Assembly: GCF_933509905.1 (NCBI RefSeq)
Contig: NZ_OW150024.1
Span: 2,778,001-2,842,000 of the forward strand
Source: Trichlorobacter ammonificans
GTDB taxonomy: Bacteria > Desulfobacterota > Desulfuromonadia > Geobacterales > Pseudopelobacteraceae
DNA length: 64,000 nt
Direction of reading: 5' to 3'
Below, piece by piece: positions 23,979 through 38,861 of the stretch (positions within the stretch are counted from its first letter, which is position 1; every line of letters begins with the position of its first letter). The notes beneath the pieces are model-generated. The model was not told the DNA's origin, ran no database searches, and was given only the letters and a program-made list of their open reading frames with translations. The position numbers were made by a program, and so were the translations under genes.

Positions 23979-26900
23979 TCATGCGGCCAGGTCGAGCTGT
24001 TCGGCTTCAGAGGGCGACAGGATACCGGCCGCCGTGCCGTTCACCCCTCTCACCACCACCGACGACCCCTTGATCGCTTTGGCCGACTTCTTGACCTCGG
24101 TGGCCAGCGAGGCCAACTGGGCGTAGGACTCAACCGGCTGGCGGGCCGTGCTGACAATGGCGACGGAAAGCGAGAGCAGACTGAAGCTCTCCTGCTCACC
24201 CCGACGGTTGAGCGAGACGTACTGACCCGCTGCATGGTCCTGGGCCCCGTGCAGGATCGGCAGCCGCAGTTCGAATTCGGCGATCAGCCGCCGGGCCAGG
24301 ACCGCGCCGCTTTCCGCCGTCGAGATGACGATGAAGTCGTCGCCGCCGATATGGCCGCAGAAGATCCGTTGTCCCTCCCGCAGGGCCGATTCCTCTTCCA
24401 TCTGGCGCAGGATATCCCCCACCACCCTGATGGCCATGTCACCCCGTTCAAAGCCGTAAAAATCGTTGTACGGCTTGAAGTGATCGATATCGACGTAGGC
24501 GATGTCGAAGGCGCTGCCCTGGGCCAGGCAGCGGGTGATCTCCCGCTGGATGCTTTCGTTGCCCGGCAAGCCCGTCAGGGGATTGGCCCCTTTGGCCAGC
24601 TTCAGGTTCAGGGCGGTCATGGCATCCACCAAGGTGCGCAGATCCAGCATGCCCAGGTAGCTGCCGCGGCGGGCTACGCAGATATTGTTCAGCCGCAGGT
24701 CCGCCGACAGTCCCTGGATGAGGCGGGCCGCCTCCTCGATACCGGTATCCGCCTCGATGACCAGCGGAACCGGATGCATCAGGTCGCGCACCTTCTTGGC
24801 GTGGTTGATATGAAAAGCATAGCCGATCCGCCCCAGAATCTGTTCCTCGATAAATTCGGTGCGGTTCATGATCCCGACCACCTGCCCCCCGTCCACCACC
24901 GGCAGGGCCTGCAACACCTTGTCGCTCTGAAACCGCTCCAGTACCGTGGTCAGCCGGTCGCCGGGATGCACCGGCGGAATCTGCAGCACAACCTCCCCGA
25001 CCGCTTCCAGCATCCGCCCGTTGCCGTTTTCCACCGGCAGGCCGAACGGCATCGCCAGAGGCGGGGGACGCTGCGGCGTCGGCTCGGGCGGCTCAGCCTC
25101 AGCCGCATCCGGCGATGCCGCCACGTATTCCTGGGTCAAAAACCGTTCGAACTCGTCGCGCTCCATCGGCTTGCCGAACAGGTACCCCTGCATCAGATCG
25201 CATCCCAGATCACGCAGCAGGCGGTGCTGTGCCGCCTTTTCCACCCCCTCCGCCACGATCCGCAGGTTCAGCGACTTAGCCAGTGCCACGATGGCGCTGA
25301 CAATGGCCAGGTCGTCGTCGTGCTCCACCAGGTCGCGAACGAACGAGCGGTCGATCTTGATAATGTCCACCGGCAGGTGCTTCAGATAGATCAGGGATGA
25401 GTAGCCGGTACCGAAGTCATCAATGGCCAGCCTGACCCCCAGCTCCTTGAGGCGGAAGATTCGCTCGGTCAGCTCGTTACTGTGCTCCATCAGCACCGAT
25501 TCGGTCAGCTCACAACAGAGCGCCTGCGGCGGCAGGCCGGTCCGCTGCAGAATAGCGGCCACCCGCTCCACGAAGCGGGGATCCTTCAGTTGCCGGGCTG
25601 AAACGTTGACGGCAACCGTCAGGTCGCGATATCCCTGCTCCCGCCAGTGACGGCAATTACCGGCAGCCAGCTCCATGACCAGCTCCCCCAGCGGCACGAT
25701 GGCGCCGTTCTGTTCGGCGATGGAGATGAAACGGTCCGGCCCCACCAACCCCAGCACCGGATGCCGCCAGCGTACCAGCGCCTCGATGCTGATCAGGCGC
25801 TTTCCCTCCCGGTCGAAGAGGGGCTGATAGTTGAGAAAAAACTCTCCGCGCCGGATTCCCTGCAGGATGCCGGCCTCAAGCTGCACCTGTTCGGACACGG
25901 CACGGTTCATTGCCTCCGAATAAAACTGAAAACAGCCGTCCTCGCCGCACTCCCGCGCCTGGATCATGGCCAGCCGGGCGTTGTGGAGCAGCGCCTCTCC
26001 CACCCGCCCGTCGCCGGGGAACACCGCGATACCGATATGCCCCTGCACCTGATACTCCCCGTCCGCCAGCACCACCGGTTCGCGGATGCACTCCAGCAGC
26101 TTGGTAAGCACCGGAATCAATTCCTGTTCCGTGGCGGTACGGGGCAGCAGCACCGCAAACTCGCCGTAGTGGGATACCGCCAGGGTATCGGTTTCACGCA
26201 GCGCCATGCGCATGCGCGCCGCCGCGGTCCGCAGCAGTTCATTGAAACTTTCATGTCCCGCCGCCACTCCCCGCGCCAAGGCGAGGGATATGACGGCAAA
26301 GGGCCGTTCCTCCCGGCTGTTGATGGCGATCAGGTGCTGCAGGCGATCCAGCAGCAGGTTGCGGTTGGGCAGGCCGGTCAGGGGATCGAAGCGGGTCAGC
26401 TCCTCCACCTGCAGGCTGATCTGTTTGTGCTGGGTGATGTCCTGGACAAACACAATGGTGCAGGGTTCCTCTCCGAAAACGAGCTGCCGGGCGCTGACCA
26501 GCCCGTAACGCAGCGCCCCGTCGCGGTGCACGAAGGTGGCTTCGAACTCGCGCACCACACCATCGCTGCGAAGGTACTGCAGCAGTGCGGCACGCTCCTC
26601 CCGGCTGTGCCAGAAGTTCAGTTCAGCTTCCCGCTGCCCCCTGATCTCGGCACCGTCGTAACCGGACATGGCGCAGAACGCCCGATTCACCAGCAGACAG
26701 CAGCCGTCCCGGTCCCTGACCACGACGATGCCGTTGCTGGAGGCTTCGAACACTCCGCTGAGCAGCTCCCGTGAGCGGGCCAGCCGCACGGCGAGCCGCG
26801 CAACCAGCACATAGATGATCAGGGCTGAGGTTGCCACGAAGAGCAGTCCCTTGCCGCTGGTAAGTTTTGCCAGCACGTGTGTGTCGGAGACGGCACGGGA

Positions 26901-27062
26901 GAGCGTACTGTCGCTCCAGAGCACCCAGAGCGATCCGATCAGGGCATACAGCAGGCTGATACGTAGCGGTGTCAGCAGAACGCCACTCCTGCGCAGCGGC
27001 GACAGCCCCTCGCGGGGAGCCTCTGTTGCGCCGGCGGCTGGCGATTTCCTTTCAACGGTCAT
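23979..27062 (-). CDS. Membrane PAS-GGDEF-EAL-CBS-GGDEF cyclic-di-GMP protein
   Basis: 1027 residues. Order: two membrane segments (about 32-50 and 70-92), PAS (about 100-215), a degenerate GGDEF domain whose signature reads SHYGEF (about 220-375), a complete EAL phosphodiesterase domain (EALVRW, VNVSARQL, CELTESVL, IDDFGTGYSS, KIDRSFV, AEGVE), a pair of CBS-like segments (about 690-830), and a second GGDEF domain with GHIGGDDFIVIS that keeps the metal-binding DIDHFKPYND segment. It can therefore probably both make and break c-di-GMP, with the first GGDEF domain serving as a regulatory module. CBS domains usually bind adenine nucleotides. The aspartate of the helix after NDFYG (ERGD) is retained, so this is not the cGAMP-making 'Hypr' variant. 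Confidence 0.9.
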   Translation of the reverse strand: MTVERKSPAAGATEAPREGLSPLRRSGVLLTPLRISLLYALIGSLWVLWSDSTLSRAVSDTHVLAKLTSGKGLLFVATSALIIYVLVARLAVRLARSRELLSGVFEASSNGIVVVRDRDGCCLLVNRAFCAMSGYDGAEIRGQREAELNFWHSREERAALLQYLRSDGVVREFEATFVHRDGALRYGLVSARQLVFGEEPCTIVFVQDITQHKQISLQVEELTRFDPLTGLPNRNLLLDRLQHLIAINSREERPFAVISLALARGVAAGHESFNELLRTAAARMRMALRETDTLAVSHYGEFAVLLPRTATEQELIPVLTKLLECIREPVVLADGEYQVQGHIGIAVFPGDGRVGEALLHNARLAMIQARECGEDGCFQFYSEAMNRAVSEQVQLEAGILQGIRRGEFFLNYQPLFDREGKRLISIEALVRWRHPVLGLVGPDRFISIAEQNGAIVPLGELVMELAAGNCRHWREQGYRDLTVAVNVSARQLKDPRFVERVAAILQRTGLPPQALCCELTESVLMEHSNELTERIFRLKELGVRLAIDDFGTGYSSLIYLKHLPVDIIKIDRSFVRDLVEHDDDLAIVSAIVALAKSLNLRIVAEGVEKAAQHRLLRDLGCDLMQGYLFGKPMERDEFERFLTQEYVAASPDAAEAEPPEPTPQRPPPLAMPFGLPVENGNGRMLEAVGEVVLQIPPVHPGDRLTTVLERFQSDKVLQALPVVDGGQVVGIMNRTEFIEEQILGRIGYAFHINHAKKVRDLMHPVPLVIEADTGIEEAARLIQGLSADLRLNNICVARRGSYLGMLDLRTLVDAMTALNLKLAKGANPLTGLPGNESIQREITRCLAQGSAFDIAYVDIDHFKPYNDFYGFERGDMAIRVVGDILRQMEEESALREGQRIFCGHIGGDDFIVISTAESGAVLARRLIAEFELRLPILHGAQDHAAGQYVSLNRRGEQESFSLLSLSVAIVSTARQPVESYAQLASLATEVKKSAKAIKGSSVVVRGVNGTAAGILSPSEAEQLDLAA

Positions 27063-33023: not shown

Positions 33024-34115
33024 TTAAATATATTCGTGGTGAATATCCTGGAACTGTTCCTCAAGTGAGAGGAACGCCTTGACCAGCTCCGGGTCAAAGT
33101 GGGTTCCGTCTCCTTCCAGCAGCATCATCCGCACTTTTTCGTGTCCGTATCCCTTGCGGTAGCAGCGGTCGGAGCGCAATGCATCGTAAAAATCAGCCAC
33201 CGCCATGATCCGGGCCGGTAACGGGATGTTCCGTCCCACCAGGCCGTCGGGATACCCGGTGCCGTTCCAGCGCTCGTGATGGTACAGGGCGATCTCGATA
33301 CCCATGCCGATGAAGGTATTGCCGCAGTAGAGGTTGTACACCTGCTGCAGGTTTTCGGCCCCCAGCACGGTGTGGCTTTTCATGATCTCGAATTCGTCCT
33401 GCGTCAGGGGACCGGGTTTCAACAGGATGCGGTCCGGAATGGCTACTTTGCCGATATCGTGCAGCGGTGAGGCATGCTGGATGCAGTCCACGAACTCGGG
33501 GGTGATGTAGTGGCTGTAGGGGGAGCCGTCCCCCAGGCGGATCGCCAGCAGGCGGCAAAACTCCCGCACCCGCTCCAGATGGGCGCCGGTATCCTCGTCC
33601 CGTTGCTCGGCCAGCTTTGCCAGGGCAAAAATGGTGGCCTGTTGGGCATCGGAGATTTCCCGCACCTTCTTCTCCACCATCTGCTGAAACTTCAACTTCC
33701 CTTCCAGCATGCAGAGATTGAGGAACACCGCGATCCTGGCCCGCAGCTCCTCGAAGTGAAACGGCTTGGTGATGAAATCAACCGCCCCCAGATGGAAGGC
33801 ACGCATCTTGTTCGCCGGGTCCGGGTCATCACTGAGCATGATGACCGGAATGTCGCGCAGCCTGATATCCTGTTTCAACTGGCGGCAGAACAGGTAGGCA
33901 TCGGTATCGACAATGTTGGTGGCCAACAGGATCAGGTCGGGCAGGTAGTTACGCAAGGCGGACAGGGCAATGGAGCCGGTGGGGAAGACCACCACCTCGT
34001 TGCCGTGCACCACCAGCAGTGTATTCAGCAGGGCAAGGGTGGTGGGATCGTCATCAACCACCATAATCTTTGCCTTCTGCAACTGTTGCGACGCTTGAAG
34101 CCGCTCAACATCCAT
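33024..34115 (-). CDS. HD-GYP phosphodiesterase with an atypical receiver domain
   Basis: 363 residues. An N-terminal CheY-like receiver (about 15-135) keeps the acidic triplet VVDDDP and the lysine of FITKPF, but the phosphoacceptor position reads LILLATN, with alanine (about A65) instead of aspartate. A helical linker leads to a complete HD-GYP domain (about 165-350): HLERVREFC, LHDIGKVAIPD, SHTVLGAENL, HHERWNGTGYPDGL and ARIMAVADFYDAL. HD-GYP enzymes hydrolyse c-di-GMP, and some hydrolyse 3',3'-cGAMP. Transcription is probably set by the GEMM riboswitch and terminator immediately upstream rather than by phosphorylation. The start at 34115 lies 25 bases after the terminator U-run. Confidence 0.93.
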   Translation of the reverse strand: MDVERLQASQQLQKAKIMVVDDDPTTLALLNTLLVVHGNEVVVFPTGSIALSALRNYLPDLILLATNIVDTDAYLFCRQLKQDIRLRDIPVIMLSDDPDPANKMRAFHLGAVDFITKPFHFEELRARIAVFLNLCMLEGKLKFQQMVEKKVREISDAQQATIFALAKLAEQRDEDTGAHLERVREFCRLLAIRLGDGSPYSHYITPEFVDCIQHASPLHDIGKVAIPDRILLKPGPLTQDEFEIMKSHTVLGAENLQQVYNLYCGNTFIGMGIEIALYHHERWNGTGYPDGLVGRNIPLPARIMAVADFYDALRSDRCYRKGYGHEKVRMMLLEGDGTHFDPELVKAFLSLEEQFQDIHHEYI

Positions 34116-34140
34116 TGCCTATATCCTTGCAACCACGAAC

Positions 34141-34169
34141 AAAAAAACCCTTCCGGCTGCGGGGAAGGG
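34141..34169 (-). terminator. riboswitch-controlled intrinsic terminator
   Basis: Minus strand: CCCTTCC (34169-34163), an eight-base loop, GGAAGGG and seven T, between the GEMM aptamer and the HD-GYP start codon. The 5' arm shares its CCC (34167-34169) with an alternative upstream hairpin, as expected of an expression platform. Confidence 0.85.
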
Positions 34170-34195
34170 CGAAAAAGCGTTGTGCGTTTTTGCCC
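34167..34195 (-). promoter_or_regulatory. candidate antiterminator hairpin
   Basis: Minus strand: GGGCAAAAACGC (34195-34184) can pair with GCTTTTTCGCCC (34178-34167), with small bulges. This uses the CCC of the terminator's 5' arm, so the two structures exclude each other. It also reaches the 3' end of the aptamer P1 stem, which would let ligand binding decide between them. Confidence 0.5.
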
Positions 34196-34282
34196 TCTCT
34201 TCGGCAACCCGGCGGTCCTTACCTGAAGGATCCGTGGCTTTGCGTCCCTCGATTACTCAAGGTTTGCTCGTGAACGGAGAGG
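34194..34282 (-). ncRNA. GEMM-I cyclic dinucleotide riboswitch, A20 (cGAMP-type) variant
   Basis: The minus strand carries GAGCAAACC, a P2-type stem CCTTGA/TCGAGG closed by the GNRA loop GTAA, the invariant GGGACGCAAAGCC, a second stem CGG-A-TCC/GGA-CCG-CCG with an internal tetraloop-receptor-like loop, and CGGGTTGCCGA. P1 can form between CCTCT and AGAGG at the two ends. This matches the GEMM-I (c-di-GMP-I) consensus. Aligned with the V. cholerae Vc2 aptamer (GGGCAAACC), the base equivalent to G20 is A; this is the substitution known from Geobacter GEMM-Ib riboswitches that respond to 3',3'-cGAMP. It controls the HD-GYP gene. Confidence 0.9.
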
Positions 34283-34301
34283 TAACTGTCTTGTATTGCT
34301 G

Positions 34302-34330
34302 TTAATACTCTGCTTCCTCCCCCCTGTCAA
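34302..34330 (-). promoter_or_regulatory. sigma-70 promoter of the riboswitch/HD-GYP transcript
   Basis: Minus strand: TTGACA (34330-34325), 17-base spacer, TATTAA (34307-34302). The expected start, about seven bases on, is a dozen bases before the aptamer P1 stem. Confidence 0.75.
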
Positions 34331-34477: not shown

Positions 34478-35467
34478 ATGCTCAAGAAAGCGATTCTGGC
34501 AGCCTGCCTCACCCTGAGCTGCGCCGCCGCGGCCCAGGCCAACACCCTGGTCAAGATCGACGGCTCCAGCACCGTCTACCCCCTTACCGAAGCAGTGGCC
34601 GAGGAGTTCCAGAAAGGAAAGAAAGGAGCTGTCAGGGTAACGGTCGGCATCTCCGGCACCGGCGGCGGGTTCAAGAAGTTCTGCCGCGGCGAGATCGACA
34701 TTTCCGACGCTTCGCGTCCGATCCTGAAGAAGGAGATGGAAGCCTGCGCGGCGGCCGGCATCAAGTACATCGAACTGCCGGTGGCCTACGACGCTCTGAC
34801 CGTGGTGGTGAACCCCCAGAACAGCTTCATCAAGACCATGACCGTGGAGGAACTGAAAAAAATCTGGGAGCCGACTGCCCAGGGCAAGATCACCAAGTGG
34901 AACCAGGTCAATCCGTCCTGGCCCGATCTGCCGATCAAGCTGTTCGGCGCCGGTGCCGACTCCGGTACCTTCGATTACTTCACCGAGGCGATCGTGGGCA
35001 AGTCCAAGTCCAGCCGCGGCGACTTCACCGCCAGCGAGGACGACAACGTGCTGGTACAGGGCGTTTCTCGCGACAAGGGGGCCCTGGGCTTCTTCGGCTA
35101 CTCCTACTACGCCGAGAACACCAAGAAGCTGAAGGCGGTTGCCATCGCCGAGAAGGCCGGCAAGTCGGGAGTGCTGCCCTCCTTTGATACGGTCAAGAAC
35201 GGCACCTACCAGCCCCTCTCCCGCCCGGTCTTCATCTACGTGAGTGCCAAGTCCCTGGAGAAACCCGAAGTAAGAGAATTCGTTGATTTCTACCTGGCCA
35301 ACGCCGCCAAGTACGCCAAGGCGGTCAAGATGGTGGGGCTGCCCGACAAGGCGTACAAGCAGACCCAGTCCAACTTCAAGGCCAAGAAGACCGGCACCGG
35401 TTTCGGCGGTGTCCCCGAAGTGGGCGTCTCCGTCGAGGAGCTGCTGCAGCGGGAAGGCAAGCACTGA
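34478..35467 (+). CDS. pstS: Phosphate ABC transporter substrate-binding protein PstS
   Basis: 329 residues. Signal peptide (cleavage near AAAAQA), then the PstS/SphX fold: [45 protein letters not shown] and [16 protein letters not shown] supply the phosphate-binding loops. It is the periplasmic phosphate receptor for PstC-PstA-PstB. AAGGAGA precedes the ATG. A large hairpin follows the gene, suited to keeping pstS transcript in excess. Only one half-site resembling a Pho box was seen upstream. Confidence 0.95.
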
Positions 35468-35489
35468 CAGCTCAGGAGCAGGCTGGACG

Positions 35490-35525
35490 CGGCGGAGGGG
35501 CGGTGCACATGGCGCCCCTCCGCCG
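35490..35525 (+). promoter_or_regulatory. stable intercistronic hairpin between pstS and pstC
   Basis: A 13-bp perfect stem, CGGCGGAGGGGCG (35490-35502) paired with CGCCCCTCCGCCG (35513-35525), loop of ten. Only a short T stretch follows, so it probably attenuates transcription or protects the pstS 3' end from exonucleases rather than stopping all transcription. Confidence 0.75.
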
Positions 35526-35551
35526 GCTATTTTCACACCCCGGAGTATCCT

Positions 35552-36463
35552 GTGGACACCAACACAAACCGACTGGCCCATAAACCGCTGCGCCATATCA
35601 AAGAGCGGATCATCGAACTGGGGCTGTTTCTCGCCGCCTCCATCTCCGTGGCCACCACCTTCGCCATCGTCGCCATCCTGGTGTACGAATCGATCCCCCT
35701 GTTCAAGGTGGTTTCCCTCTGGACGTTTCTCACCGACACCCAGTGGACCCCGCTGTTCGATGATGCCCACTACGGCATCATGACCCTGGTGGCCGGCACC
35801 CTGGTCACCACCCTGGTGGCGCTGGCGGTGGCGATTCCCATGGGAACCGTCATCGCCATCTACCTGAGCGAGTTCGCTCCCCACCGGGTGCGGGAAAGCG
35901 TCAAACCGTTCCTGGAACTGCTGGGAGCCGTCCCCACGGTGGTGTACGGCTACTTCGCCCTGATCTTCGTCACCCCCCTGCTGCAGAAACTGATGCCGGA
36001 ACTTCCCGGCTTCAACATGCTTTCCGCCGGCCTGGTGATGGGAATCATGATCATTCCCTACGTCAGCTCGGTCAGCGAGGATGCCATGCGGGCGGTGCCG
36101 ATGCATATCCGCGAAGGTTCCTACGCCATGGGGGCCACCCGCTTCCAGACCGCCACCCGGGTGGTGGTACCCGGCGCCTTTTCCGGCATCGCCGCCGCCT
36201 ACATCCTGGGAATTTCCCGGGCCGTGGGGGAAACCATGATCGTGGCCGTGGCCGCCGGCATGCAGCCCAACCTGACCCTGAACCCCCTGGAGCCGGCCGC
36301 CACCATCAGCTCCTACATCGTACAGGTGGCCCTGGGGGATCTGCCCCACGGCAGCATCGGCTACCAGACCATCTTCGCCGCCGGTCTGACCCTGATGCTG
36401 ATTACACTGGTCTTCAACGTACTGGGCTACTGGCTGTCACGCAAATTCCGGGAGGTGTACTGA
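35552..36463 (+). CDS. pstC: Phosphate ABC transporter permease PstC
   Basis: 303 residues, six membrane helices, with the permease EAA loop around EDAMRAVPMHIREGSYAMGATRFQTATRVVVPGAFSGI (about 170-210) and ISRAVGETMIVAVAAG. It starts at a GTG with CGGAG upstream. Its stop overlaps the pstA start (TGATG). Confidence 0.95.
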   Translation: MDTNTNRLAHKPLRHIKERIIELGLFLAASISVATTFAIVAILVYESIPLFKVVSLWTFLTDTQWTPLFDDAHYGIMTLVAGTLVTTLVALAVAIPMGTVIAIYLSEFAPHRVRESVKPFLELLGAVPTVVYGYFALIFVTPLLQKLMPELPGFNMLSAGLVMGIMIIPYVSSVSEDAMRAVPMHIREGSYAMGATRFQTATRVVVPGAFSGIAAAYILGISRAVGETMIVAVAAGMQPNLTLNPLEPAATISSYIVQVALGDLPHGSIGYQTIFAAGLTLMLITLVFNVLGYWLSRKFREVY

Positions 36464-37383
36464 TGCGTTTCACCCTTGACGAGATGCGGGGCATCATCGC
36501 CCGCCACAAGCGATGGGATCATCTGTTCGCCCTGTTCGGCATCTGTTGCCTGCTGGTGGGAATCCTGACCCTGGTGGTACTGTTCGCCCAACTGTTCCTG
36601 CAGGGTATGGAACGGCTCACCCCCCAGTTCTTCACTTCCTTCCCCTCCCGGTTGCCGGAAAACGCCGGCATCCTCTCCGCCTGGGTGGGAACCATGGCGG
36701 TGATGCTGGTCACCGCCGTCACCGCCGTTCCCCTGGGGGTGGCCGCCGCCGTCTACCTGGAAGAATACGCACCCCGCAACTGGATGACCGCCATCATCGA
36801 GATCAACGTCACCAATCTGGCCGGCGTCCCTTCCATTGTCTATGGCTTGCTGGCCCTGGGCCTGTTCGTCTATCAGTTCGGTTTCGGCCAGAGCATCCTC
36901 TCCGCCGGCCTCACCCTGGCGCTGCTGATCCTGCCGGTGGTGATCGTGGCCACCCGGGAGGCGCTGCGGGCAGTACCGGGCAGCATCCGTGAGGCGGCCT
37001 ACGCCCTGGGTGCCACCCGTTGGCAGATGGTCTCCGGTCACCTGTTGCCCTATTCGTCGGCAGGGATTCTCACCGGCATGATCATCGGCCTTTCCCGGGC
37101 CATCGGCGAGACAGCGCCGATCATCACCATCGGGGCGCTCACCTTCATCGCCTTTCTACCCAGTTCACCCGTTACCGCCGAATTTCCCTTCATCTCCTTT
37201 GCCTGGCTGAAGGACCCGTTCACGGTGATGCCGATCCAGATGTTCAACTGGACCTCGCGGCCGGAGGAGGCGTTCCAGCTGAACGCCGCCGCAGCCGGGG
37301 TGGTGCTGCTGGTCATGACCCTGGCCATGAACGGCCTGGCCATCTGGCTGCGCTACCGTATCCGCAGGAGAATAAAGTGGTAA
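36463..37383 (+). CDS. pstA: Phosphate ABC transporter permease PstA
   Basis: 306 residues, six membrane helices. The EAA-type loop is REALRAVPGSIREAAYALGATRWQMV, and LSRAIGETAPIITIGAL follows, both standard for PstA. It pairs with PstC to form the phosphate channel. One-base overlap with pstC. Confidence 0.95.
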   Translation: MRFTLDEMRGIIARHKRWDHLFALFGICCLLVGILTLVVLFAQLFLQGMERLTPQFFTSFPSRLPENAGILSAWVGTMAVMLVTAVTAVPLGVAAAVYLEEYAPRNWMTAIIEINVTNLAGVPSIVYGLLALGLFVYQFGFGQSILSAGLTLALLILPVVIVATREALRAVPGSIREAAYALGATRWQMVSGHLLPYSSAGILTGMIIGLSRAIGETAPIITIGALTFIAFLPSSPVTAEFPFISFAWLKDPFTVMPIQMFNWTSRPEEAFQLNAAAAGVVLLVMTLAMNGLAIWLRYRIRRRIKW

Positions 37384-37413
37384 CATTCCATACTGCCCGT
37401 CAGGAGCAACCGC

Positions 37414-38190
37414 ATGACTGAATCAATACAAACATTGAAAGCCGAAGCACGGGATCTGAGCTTTTACTACGGCACCGTCAAGGCATTGAAAAATATCTCC
37501 CTGCCGCTGTACGACAGGAAGGTGACCGCCCTGATCGGCCCCTCCGGCTGTGGCAAATCGACCTTTCTGCGCTGCTTCAACCGGATGCACGATCTCTATC
37601 CCGGCAATCGCTACGACGGCGAGATCGTCCTGCACCCGGACAACGTCAACGTCCTTTCCGGCGATGTTGACCCGATCGAGGTCCGGATGCGGATCAGCAT
37701 GGTCTTTCAGAAGCCGAACCCCTTCCCCAAGTCGATTTTCGAGAATGTGGCCTACGGCCTGAAAGTGCGGGGGGTCAGCAAAAAATCAATTCTTGAGGAA
37801 AAGGTGGAAGAGGCCCTGACCAACGCCGCCCTCTGGAACGAGGTGAAGGATCGCCTGCATGACCTGGCCTTCAACCTCTCCGGTGGTCAGCAGCAGCGGC
37901 TCTGCATCGCCCGGGCCCTGGCCATTGATCCGGAGATCATGCTGTTCGACGAGCCGACCTCCGCCCTGGACCCGATCGCCACCGCCAGCATCGAGGAGTT
38001 GATGGAGGAGCTGAAGGCGCGCTTCTCGATCCTGATCGTCACCCACAACATGCAGCAGGCGGCCCGGGTCTCCGACTACACCGCCTTCCTCTACATGGGC
38101 GAGCTGATCGAGTACAATGAAACCAAGAAAATTTTCACCAATCCGGATCGGAAAGAGACGGAAGACTACATCACGGGGAGATTCGGATAA
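37414..38190 (+). CDS. pstB: Phosphate ABC transporter ATPase PstB
   Basis: 258 residues. ABC ATPase with Walker [20 protein letters not shown]-loop [21 protein letters not shown], signature [15 protein letters not shown] and Walker [16 protein letters not shown]. The FNRMHDL...GEI and KPNPFP segments are PstB-specific. Its stop overlaps the phoU start. Confidence 0.97.
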
Positions 38191-38861
38191 TGGAACGAGA
38201 ACATTTCAGCGCAGCCTACGACCAGGAGCTGAACGACCTGCGGCAGCGGCTTCTGACCATGGGGGGGCTGGTGGAGGTGATGATCGCCGACTCCATCAAG
38301 GCACTGGTGGAGCGGGATACCGCCCTGGCGGAGCGGATCATCGCCATGGACCACGAGGTGAACACCCACGAGGTGGCCATTGACGAAAAATGCCTGGAAC
38401 TGCTGGCCCGTCGTCAGCCGGCGGCGCGGGATCTGCGCTTCATCACCCTGGCGCTCAAGATCGTCACCGACCTGGAGCGGATCGGCGACCAGTGCGCCAA
38501 CGTGGCCAAACGGGCCCGCGAGCTGAACCAGGAGCCTCCGCTGAAGCCGTACATCGACATCCCGCGTATGGCGAACCGGGCCTCCACCATGGTCCGGGAA
38601 GCCCTGGACTCCTTTGTCCGCTACGACGACACCCTGGCCATCAAGGTCTGCAAGGACGACCAGCTGGTGGACGAGCTGAACCAGCAGATCCAGCGGGAAC
38701 TCTACACCTACATGATCGAGGACCCCAGCACCATCAGCCGGGCCATGAAACTGACCTACATCTCCAAATCGCTGGAGCGGATATCCGACCATGCCACTAA
38801 CATCGCGGAAATGGTCATCTTCATGGTGAAGGGAAAAGATATCCGCCACACCATCGCCTGA
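38190..38861 (+). CDS. phoU: Phosphate signalling protein PhoU
   Basis: 223 residues, all-helical, two PhoU repeats each with the metal-binding E/DxxxD-type motif (LKIVTDLERIGDQCANVAKRA and TYISKSLERISDHATNIAEMV). PhoU links the Pst transporter to the PhoR/PhoB two-component system and restrains phosphate uptake. It overlaps pstB by one base and ends seven bases before the convergent mfd stop. Confidence 0.97.
   Translation: MEREHFSAAYDQELNDLRQRLLTMGGLVEVMIADSIKALVERDTALAERIIAMDHEVNTHEVAIDEKCLELLARRQPAARDLRFITLALKIVTDLERIGDQCANVAKRARELNQEPPLKPYIDIPRMANRASTMVREALDSFVRYDDTLAIKVCKDDQLVDELNQQIQRELYTYMIEDPSTISRAMKLTYISKSLERISDHATNIAEMVIFMVKGKDIRHTIA

Follow-up and report, generated by a model that had tools for sequence, protein, structure and literature searches.

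In Geobacter sulfurreducens, expression of every gene located behind a GEMM-Ib riboswitch fell when gacA was deleted, and these riboswitches are therefore ON switches (PMC6456294). GacA, the known cGAMP synthase, is itself inhibited by c-di-GMP (PMC6456294). Two platform anatomies have been described, as the pilM riboswitch is an ON switch in which the terminator includes the 3′ strand of the aptamer, and Cd1 is an OFF switch with a separate terminator (PMC9262584). The A20G exchange in the Gmet_0970 riboswitch changed its selectivity from cGAMP to c-di-GMP (PMC6456294), a G20A mutant of a c-di-GMP-I aptamer binds cGAMP (PMC7288161), and, by one report, the omcST riboswitch responds to both messengers (PMC6456294). 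In the literature searched, which excluded two PNAS 2015 surveys so that a prior listing is possible, no account was found of either an A20 riboswitch of OFF type or an HD-GYP gene with a cGAMP riboswitch ahead of it. The window analysed here, a stretch of 64,000 nucleotides, contains a riboswitch of the GEMM-I class with A20 upstream of an HD-GYP gene.

The leader, its aptamer and the gene behind it

The features of the locus, from the putative promoter to the gene, are:

34325..34330, minus strand, putative −35 element TTGACA, perfect (sequence; also in the relative G012)
34302..34307, minus strand, −10-like element TATTAA, spacer 17, 4/6 of consensus (sequence)
34277..34282, minus strand, P1 5′ strand CCUCUC (sequence and fold)
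34200..34278, minus strand, GEMM-I/c-di-GMP-I aptamer (cmscan, RF01051)
34268, minus strand, A at Vc2 position 20, the ligand-selectivity base, followed by G21 and C22 (cmscan model column 11 and alignments)
34247..34262, minus strand, P2 hairpin CCUUGA-GUAA-UCGAGG, GUAA being a GNRA loop (sequence and cmscan)
34194..34199, minus strand, P1 3′ strand GAGAGG (sequence and fold)
34165..34197, minus strand, antiterminator hairpin GAGGGC...GCCCUU (RNAfold; conserved in G012, L031 and L019)
34148..34169, minus strand, intrinsic terminator stem CCCUUCC/GGAAGGG (fold and terminator scan)
34141..34147, minus strand, terminator U-run of 7 U (sequence)
34124..34128, minus strand, ribosome-binding site AAGGA (sequence)
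33024..34115, minus strand, REC-HD-GYP gene, 363 aa (Pfam HD_5 100.5 bits, Response_reg 70.6 bits)

The initial annotation had called a GEMM-I aptamer with a GNRA-capped P2 and an A in the Vc2 G20 column, and all three calls stand. When the 64-kb window was searched with cmscan against 4227 families, RF01051 (GEMM-I, c-di-GMP-I) matched at 34278-34200 (minus strand) over the full model length, with 59.6 bits against a gathering threshold of 35 and an E value of 3.9e-9; A34268 occupies model column 11. Against a covariance model built here, R1, the training set of which included the window itself, the aptamer scored 80.3 bits. The conserved elements GGGACGCAAAGCC and CGGGUUGCCG are read directly in the sequence, and the pocket and P2 loop features that mark membership of GEMM-I are present (the GUAA loop, GACGCAAAGCC, A47 and C92). 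G21-C46, A47 and C92 are the bases of Vc2, the model columns being converted to Vc2 numbering (G20, A47, C92). Two other families were tried and rejected: RF03167 (c-di-GMP-I-GGC) scored 53.2 bits against a cut-off of 59, with A47 where G47 is expected, and RF03168 (c-di-GMP-I-UAU), scored on the G012 copy, reached 58.9 against 65.9 bits.

The promoter is plausible and is the weakest part of the leader. TTGACA is perfect and spaced by 17 bases, whereas TATTAA was not picked up by a strict consensus promoter scan of the leader, so that the promoter first annotated here stands for its −35 element and is weak at its −10. In the close relative G012, TTGACA occurs again together with TATTTA. The remainder of the platform is as first annotated, with a terminator and U-run, an antiterminator sharing a strand with the terminator, and an ORF that starts at 34115, 25 bases past the U-run.

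The ORF had been named as an HD-GYP gene and its Pfam matches agree. In an alignment of homologues the catalytic and metal-binding motifs are intact (H219 D220, H248, H279 H280, GYP and D308), and the product is a predicted HD-GYP phosphodiesterase that is likely to degrade a signal. The closest PDB chains by sequence are 4r8z, named as a cyclic di-GMP phosphodiesterase (165 bits), and 4mcw; the third is 5z7c, a cGAMP-specific phosphodiesterase. The phospho-acceptor Asp of the receiver is replaced by Ala (PDLILLATN, against PDLLLLD in other homologues). Ala is also present in G012, Gly in L036 (from G022) and L135 (from STB_154), and Asp in the other homologues. As the receiver domain has no phosphorylation site, the protein may be controlled at the level of its synthesis. 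We note that L036 and L135, the relatives with a Gly receiver, have no riboswitch. Elsewhere in the window, pstS-pstC-pstA-pstB-phoU-like genes, named by eye from their translations, lie at 34478-38861 (plus strand), divergent from the HD-GYP leader, and 23979-27062 (minus strand) encodes a protein that has an EAL region and two GGDEF regions, the first of which carries a degenerate motif (SHYGEF).

Direction of the switch

The antiterminator overlaps the 5′ arm of the terminator, with which it shares GCCCUU, and 4 nt of the 3′ strand of P1, and is thus mutually exclusive with both helices. The terminator, which begins 29 nt downstream of the aptamer, can form together with P1. Because the antiterminator uses strands of P1 and of the terminator, while these two can coexist, ligand should favour termination. 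Without ligand, P1 plus terminator was calculated at −46.3 and the antiterminator fold at −47.5 kcal/mol, a gap of 1.2, and with two states so nearly isoenergetic the energy of ligand binding could decide between them. In RNAfold the antiterminator is the minimum free energy fold once its own 3′ arm has been transcribed, and before completion of the terminator it has 8 pairs in the window, 8 in G012, 9 in L031 and 6 in L019. The equilibrium fold of G012 without ligand is P1 plus terminator, and any switching there would therefore have to be kinetic.

Two tests of the antiterminator were applied, the hairpin dinucleotide-shuffle test being adopted after the duplex-energy test. Duplex energy was uninformative, since complementarity between antiterminator and terminator arms (A:T) was no better in the window than with shuffled terminator arms (p 0.55), and across leaders natural pairs averaged −11.06 against −11.15 for chimeras with swapped arms (permutation p 0.59). 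By dinucleotide shuffling, the window hairpin gave z −2.79 (p 0.01), which strengthens what had been put forward as a candidate antiterminator, and the 25 A20-G21 leaders, including that of the window, gave a mean z of −1.68, with p<0.05 in 14/25. The entire 186-nt leader was only mildly better than its shuffles (z −1.88).

The platform was compared with those of 172 distinct leaders from loci around listed GEMM-I matches in the order, all aligned to one model. ON and OFF are anatomical labels here, for a terminator that overlaps the P1 3′ strand or is separate from P1, respectively. The sample was drawn from the best-scoring listed matches, so low-scoring A20-C21 aptamers are under-represented, and the leaders are related by descent, so the counts are not independent events. 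Leaders with a terminator, by bases 20-21, were:

AC: 11 ON, 0 OFF
GC: 33 ON, 1 OFF
AG: 0 ON, 25 OFF
GG: 11 ON, 44 OFF
CG: 3 OFF
UG: 1 ON

No terminator was found in the remaining leaders among the 172. In this score-biased sample, C21 aptamers with a terminator were ON-type in 44/45 cases and A20-G21 aptamers OFF-type in 25/25, the terminator lying downstream of P1 in every one of the latter and over the aptamer 3′ strand in 11/11 A20-C21 leaders. A20-G21 leaders of OFF type occur in 19 genomes belonging to about 10 genera of the sample, a spread more suggestive of selection than of drift. Both A20 types are present together in five genomes (G000, G012, G023, G035 and G047). Among the 172 leaders, base 21 (C or G) tracks the platform largely independently of base 20, and in Geobacterales the 21/46 pair is a simple marker by which to read platform direction from sequence. 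As a separate observation, position 20 is C (six) or U (one) in the Geobacterales GEMM-I aptamers L192, L021, L279, L271, L028, L269 and L282. The initial annotation had left the direction of the switch open; the anatomy of the platform and the 25 comparable A20-G21 leaders indicate that it is probably an OFF switch.

Conservation of the leader and gene

The orthologous gene of G012 has the same leader, with 84% identity over 175 bases, and the HD-GYP proteins are 93% identical; a near relative is the MAG Geobacter sp. UBA6151. The core of the aptamer is retained in G012, as are P1, the antiterminator and the terminator, and the roughly 16% divergence of the leader falls mostly in loops and spacer. 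Among the orthologues examined only that of G012 has a GEMM-I aptamer, which is absent ahead of the more distant ones (G014, G022, G005 and STB_154). In another genus (G024), L031 has an A20-G21 leader of the same layout ahead of a different HD-GYP gene. Similar HD-GYP genes also follow a G20 GEMM-I aptamer with a separate terminator in L255, where the aptamer directly precedes the gene, and in L260, where it lies further upstream. The HD-GYP gene near L265 is preceded by another ORF. EAL genes were rejected as direct targets of L217, L232 and L252, where they are second genes behind a CheW-like gene.

Ligand and signalling capacity of the genome

The locus had been annotated as cGAMP-type. 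A20 is present and the genome carries signatures of a cGAMP synthase, but the assignment rests on one base in a G21-C46 background that is Vc2-like. The aptamer thus differs from the A20-C21...GGAAAG type found in this genome's tandem aptamer and in leaders of the genus Geobacter, which have C21-G46, and for this reason A20 may here give mixed specificity. A20 on G21-C46 would be a natural counterpart of Vc2 G20A, with dual specificity possible. Selectivity for cGAMP is plausible, and 3′,3′-cGAMP is the most likely ligand as judged from sequence, with c-di-GMP or both as possible ligands.

The genome (3.06 Mb, one contig) contains three GEMM-I aptamers, that of the window and a tandem pair at G000:C1:1681643-1681917 (L004:5644-5918, plus strand). 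The first of the pair is A20-C21 with an ON-type terminator, the second (1681831) is G20, and they precede a gene for an 876-aa secreted Ig-repeat protein; such an A20/G20 pair could possibly act as a two-messenger gate. Ser348 and loss of the cross-dimer Arg are features of cGAMP-producing Hypr enzymes (PMC6456294, PMC8835794). One GGDEF protein of the genome, a GAF-GGDEF encoded at G000:C1:2096784-2097869 (minus strand), has Ser at 348, the Hypr position, with GGDEY and with Ala at 304, a position occupied by Arg in canonical enzymes. Its closest PDB chain is 6d9m (143 bits, the next 114), and the Ser is also found in orthologues across the genus and further out. The A20 tandem aptamer with its ON-type platform, taken with a GGDEF that has both Hypr signature residues, makes cGAMP signalling plausible, and on these signatures the genome may be able to make cGAMP. 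We also note that, alongside the Ser Hypr type, many Geobacterales genomes have a GGDEF-like match in which the guanine-selectivity position is occupied by Thr (GHxAGT; for example G047:C11:1374402, G040:C1:36932 and G012:C65:100720).

Model and alternatives

We propose, at about even chances, that the A20/G21-C46 riboswitch controls the REC-HD-GYP gene transcriptionally as an OFF switch, the ligand being most likely 3′,3′-cGAMP and possibly also c-di-GMP. Without ligand, the nascent antiterminator would capture the P1 3′ strand and occupy the terminator 5′ arm, and RNA polymerase would read into the gene. A bound cyclic dinucleotide would lock P1 and block the antiterminator, allowing CCCUUCC/GGAAGGG to fold and transcription to stop ahead of the gene. 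Control of the HD-GYP protein would lie in its synthesis, its receiver having lost the phosphorylation site. The feedback loop first suggested for this locus would then be a positive one if the ligand is what the enzyme degrades; with c-di-GMP as the substrate it would be a loop of cross-talk.

A reading to which we give clearly lower odds keeps the OFF switch and makes c-di-GMP, alone or with cGAMP, the physiological ligand; A20 on G21-C46 would relax selectivity, and c-di-GMP would repress its own phosphodiesterase in a positive feedback. G21-C46 does occur in G20 leaders with OFF platforms (44 in the survey), 8/30 A20-G21 aptamers have as nearest aptamer one with G or C at position 20, the G20 leaders of L255 (directly) and L260 precede HD-GYP genes, and 4r8z and 4mcw are the closest solved relatives of the enzyme. 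Set against this are the retention of A20-G21 with OFF anatomy in 19 genomes, the shifts of selectivity caused by A20G and G20A in the aptamers tested, and the Hypr GGDEF in the genome. That ligand instead raises HD-GYP expression, as in the known Geobacter cGAMP riboswitches, is improbable, even though the GEMM-Ib genes of G. sulfurreducens all fall without GacA and a phosphodiesterase under negative feedback makes for simpler homeostasis, since the terminators of A20 ON-type leaders in the sample start 12-15 nt inside the aptamer, while the one here starts 29 nt after it and is P1-compatible, and no anti-antiterminator was seen in the window leader. We consider it least probable of all that the riboswitch has decayed, leaving an aptamer remnant and a terminator that merely attenuates an unresponsive gene. 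The arrangement is found in one relative only, four orthologues being without it, and the receiver of the protein is also degenerate; selective retention of the working parts of the leader in G012 argues against decay.

We tentatively suggest, while regarding this wider claim as somewhat doubtful, that A20-G21 aptamers form a second natural cGAMP subclass in Geobacterales, apart from the C21 ON class and wired OFF, with cGAMP inducing one set of genes and repressing another that includes HD-GYP phosphodiesterases, here in a bistable double-negative loop or a coupling of cGAMP to c-di-GMP. The characterized cGAMP riboswitches in the papers cited activate genes; with a conserved A20 OFF group, one messenger would both induce and repress by riboswitch in one cell, and a phosphodiesterase would be repressed by a cyclic dinucleotide. 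As c-di-GMP inhibits GacA (PMC6456294), the two messengers would be joined in a loop if cGAMP represses a phosphodiesterase that acts on c-di-GMP.

Comparison with known systems

The window aptamer shares with the c-di-GMP-I aptamers Vc2 and C. difficile Cd1 its secondary structure, A47, C92 and the G21-C46 pair, and differs from both in having A rather than G at position 20. Its platform resembles that of Cd1, an OFF switch whose terminator stands apart and whose antiterminator captures the 3′ strand of the aptamer (PMC9262584). With the Geobacter GEMM-Ib riboswitches (Gs1761/pgcA and Gmet_0970/pilM), from the same order of bacteria, it has A20 in common; those are ON switches, whereas the platform here, with its terminator separate from P1, is predicted from anatomy not to be of ON type. 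The A20-C21 leaders of the sample have C21 and GACGGAAAG where the window has G21-C22 and GACGCAAAG, and Gs1761 presumably resembles the tandem aptamer of this genome. The product has the domain order of REC-HD-GYP phosphodiesterases of the PA4781/RpfG type and keeps their HD, GYP and metal-ligand motifs, but differs from them in a receiver that has no phospho-acceptor Asp.
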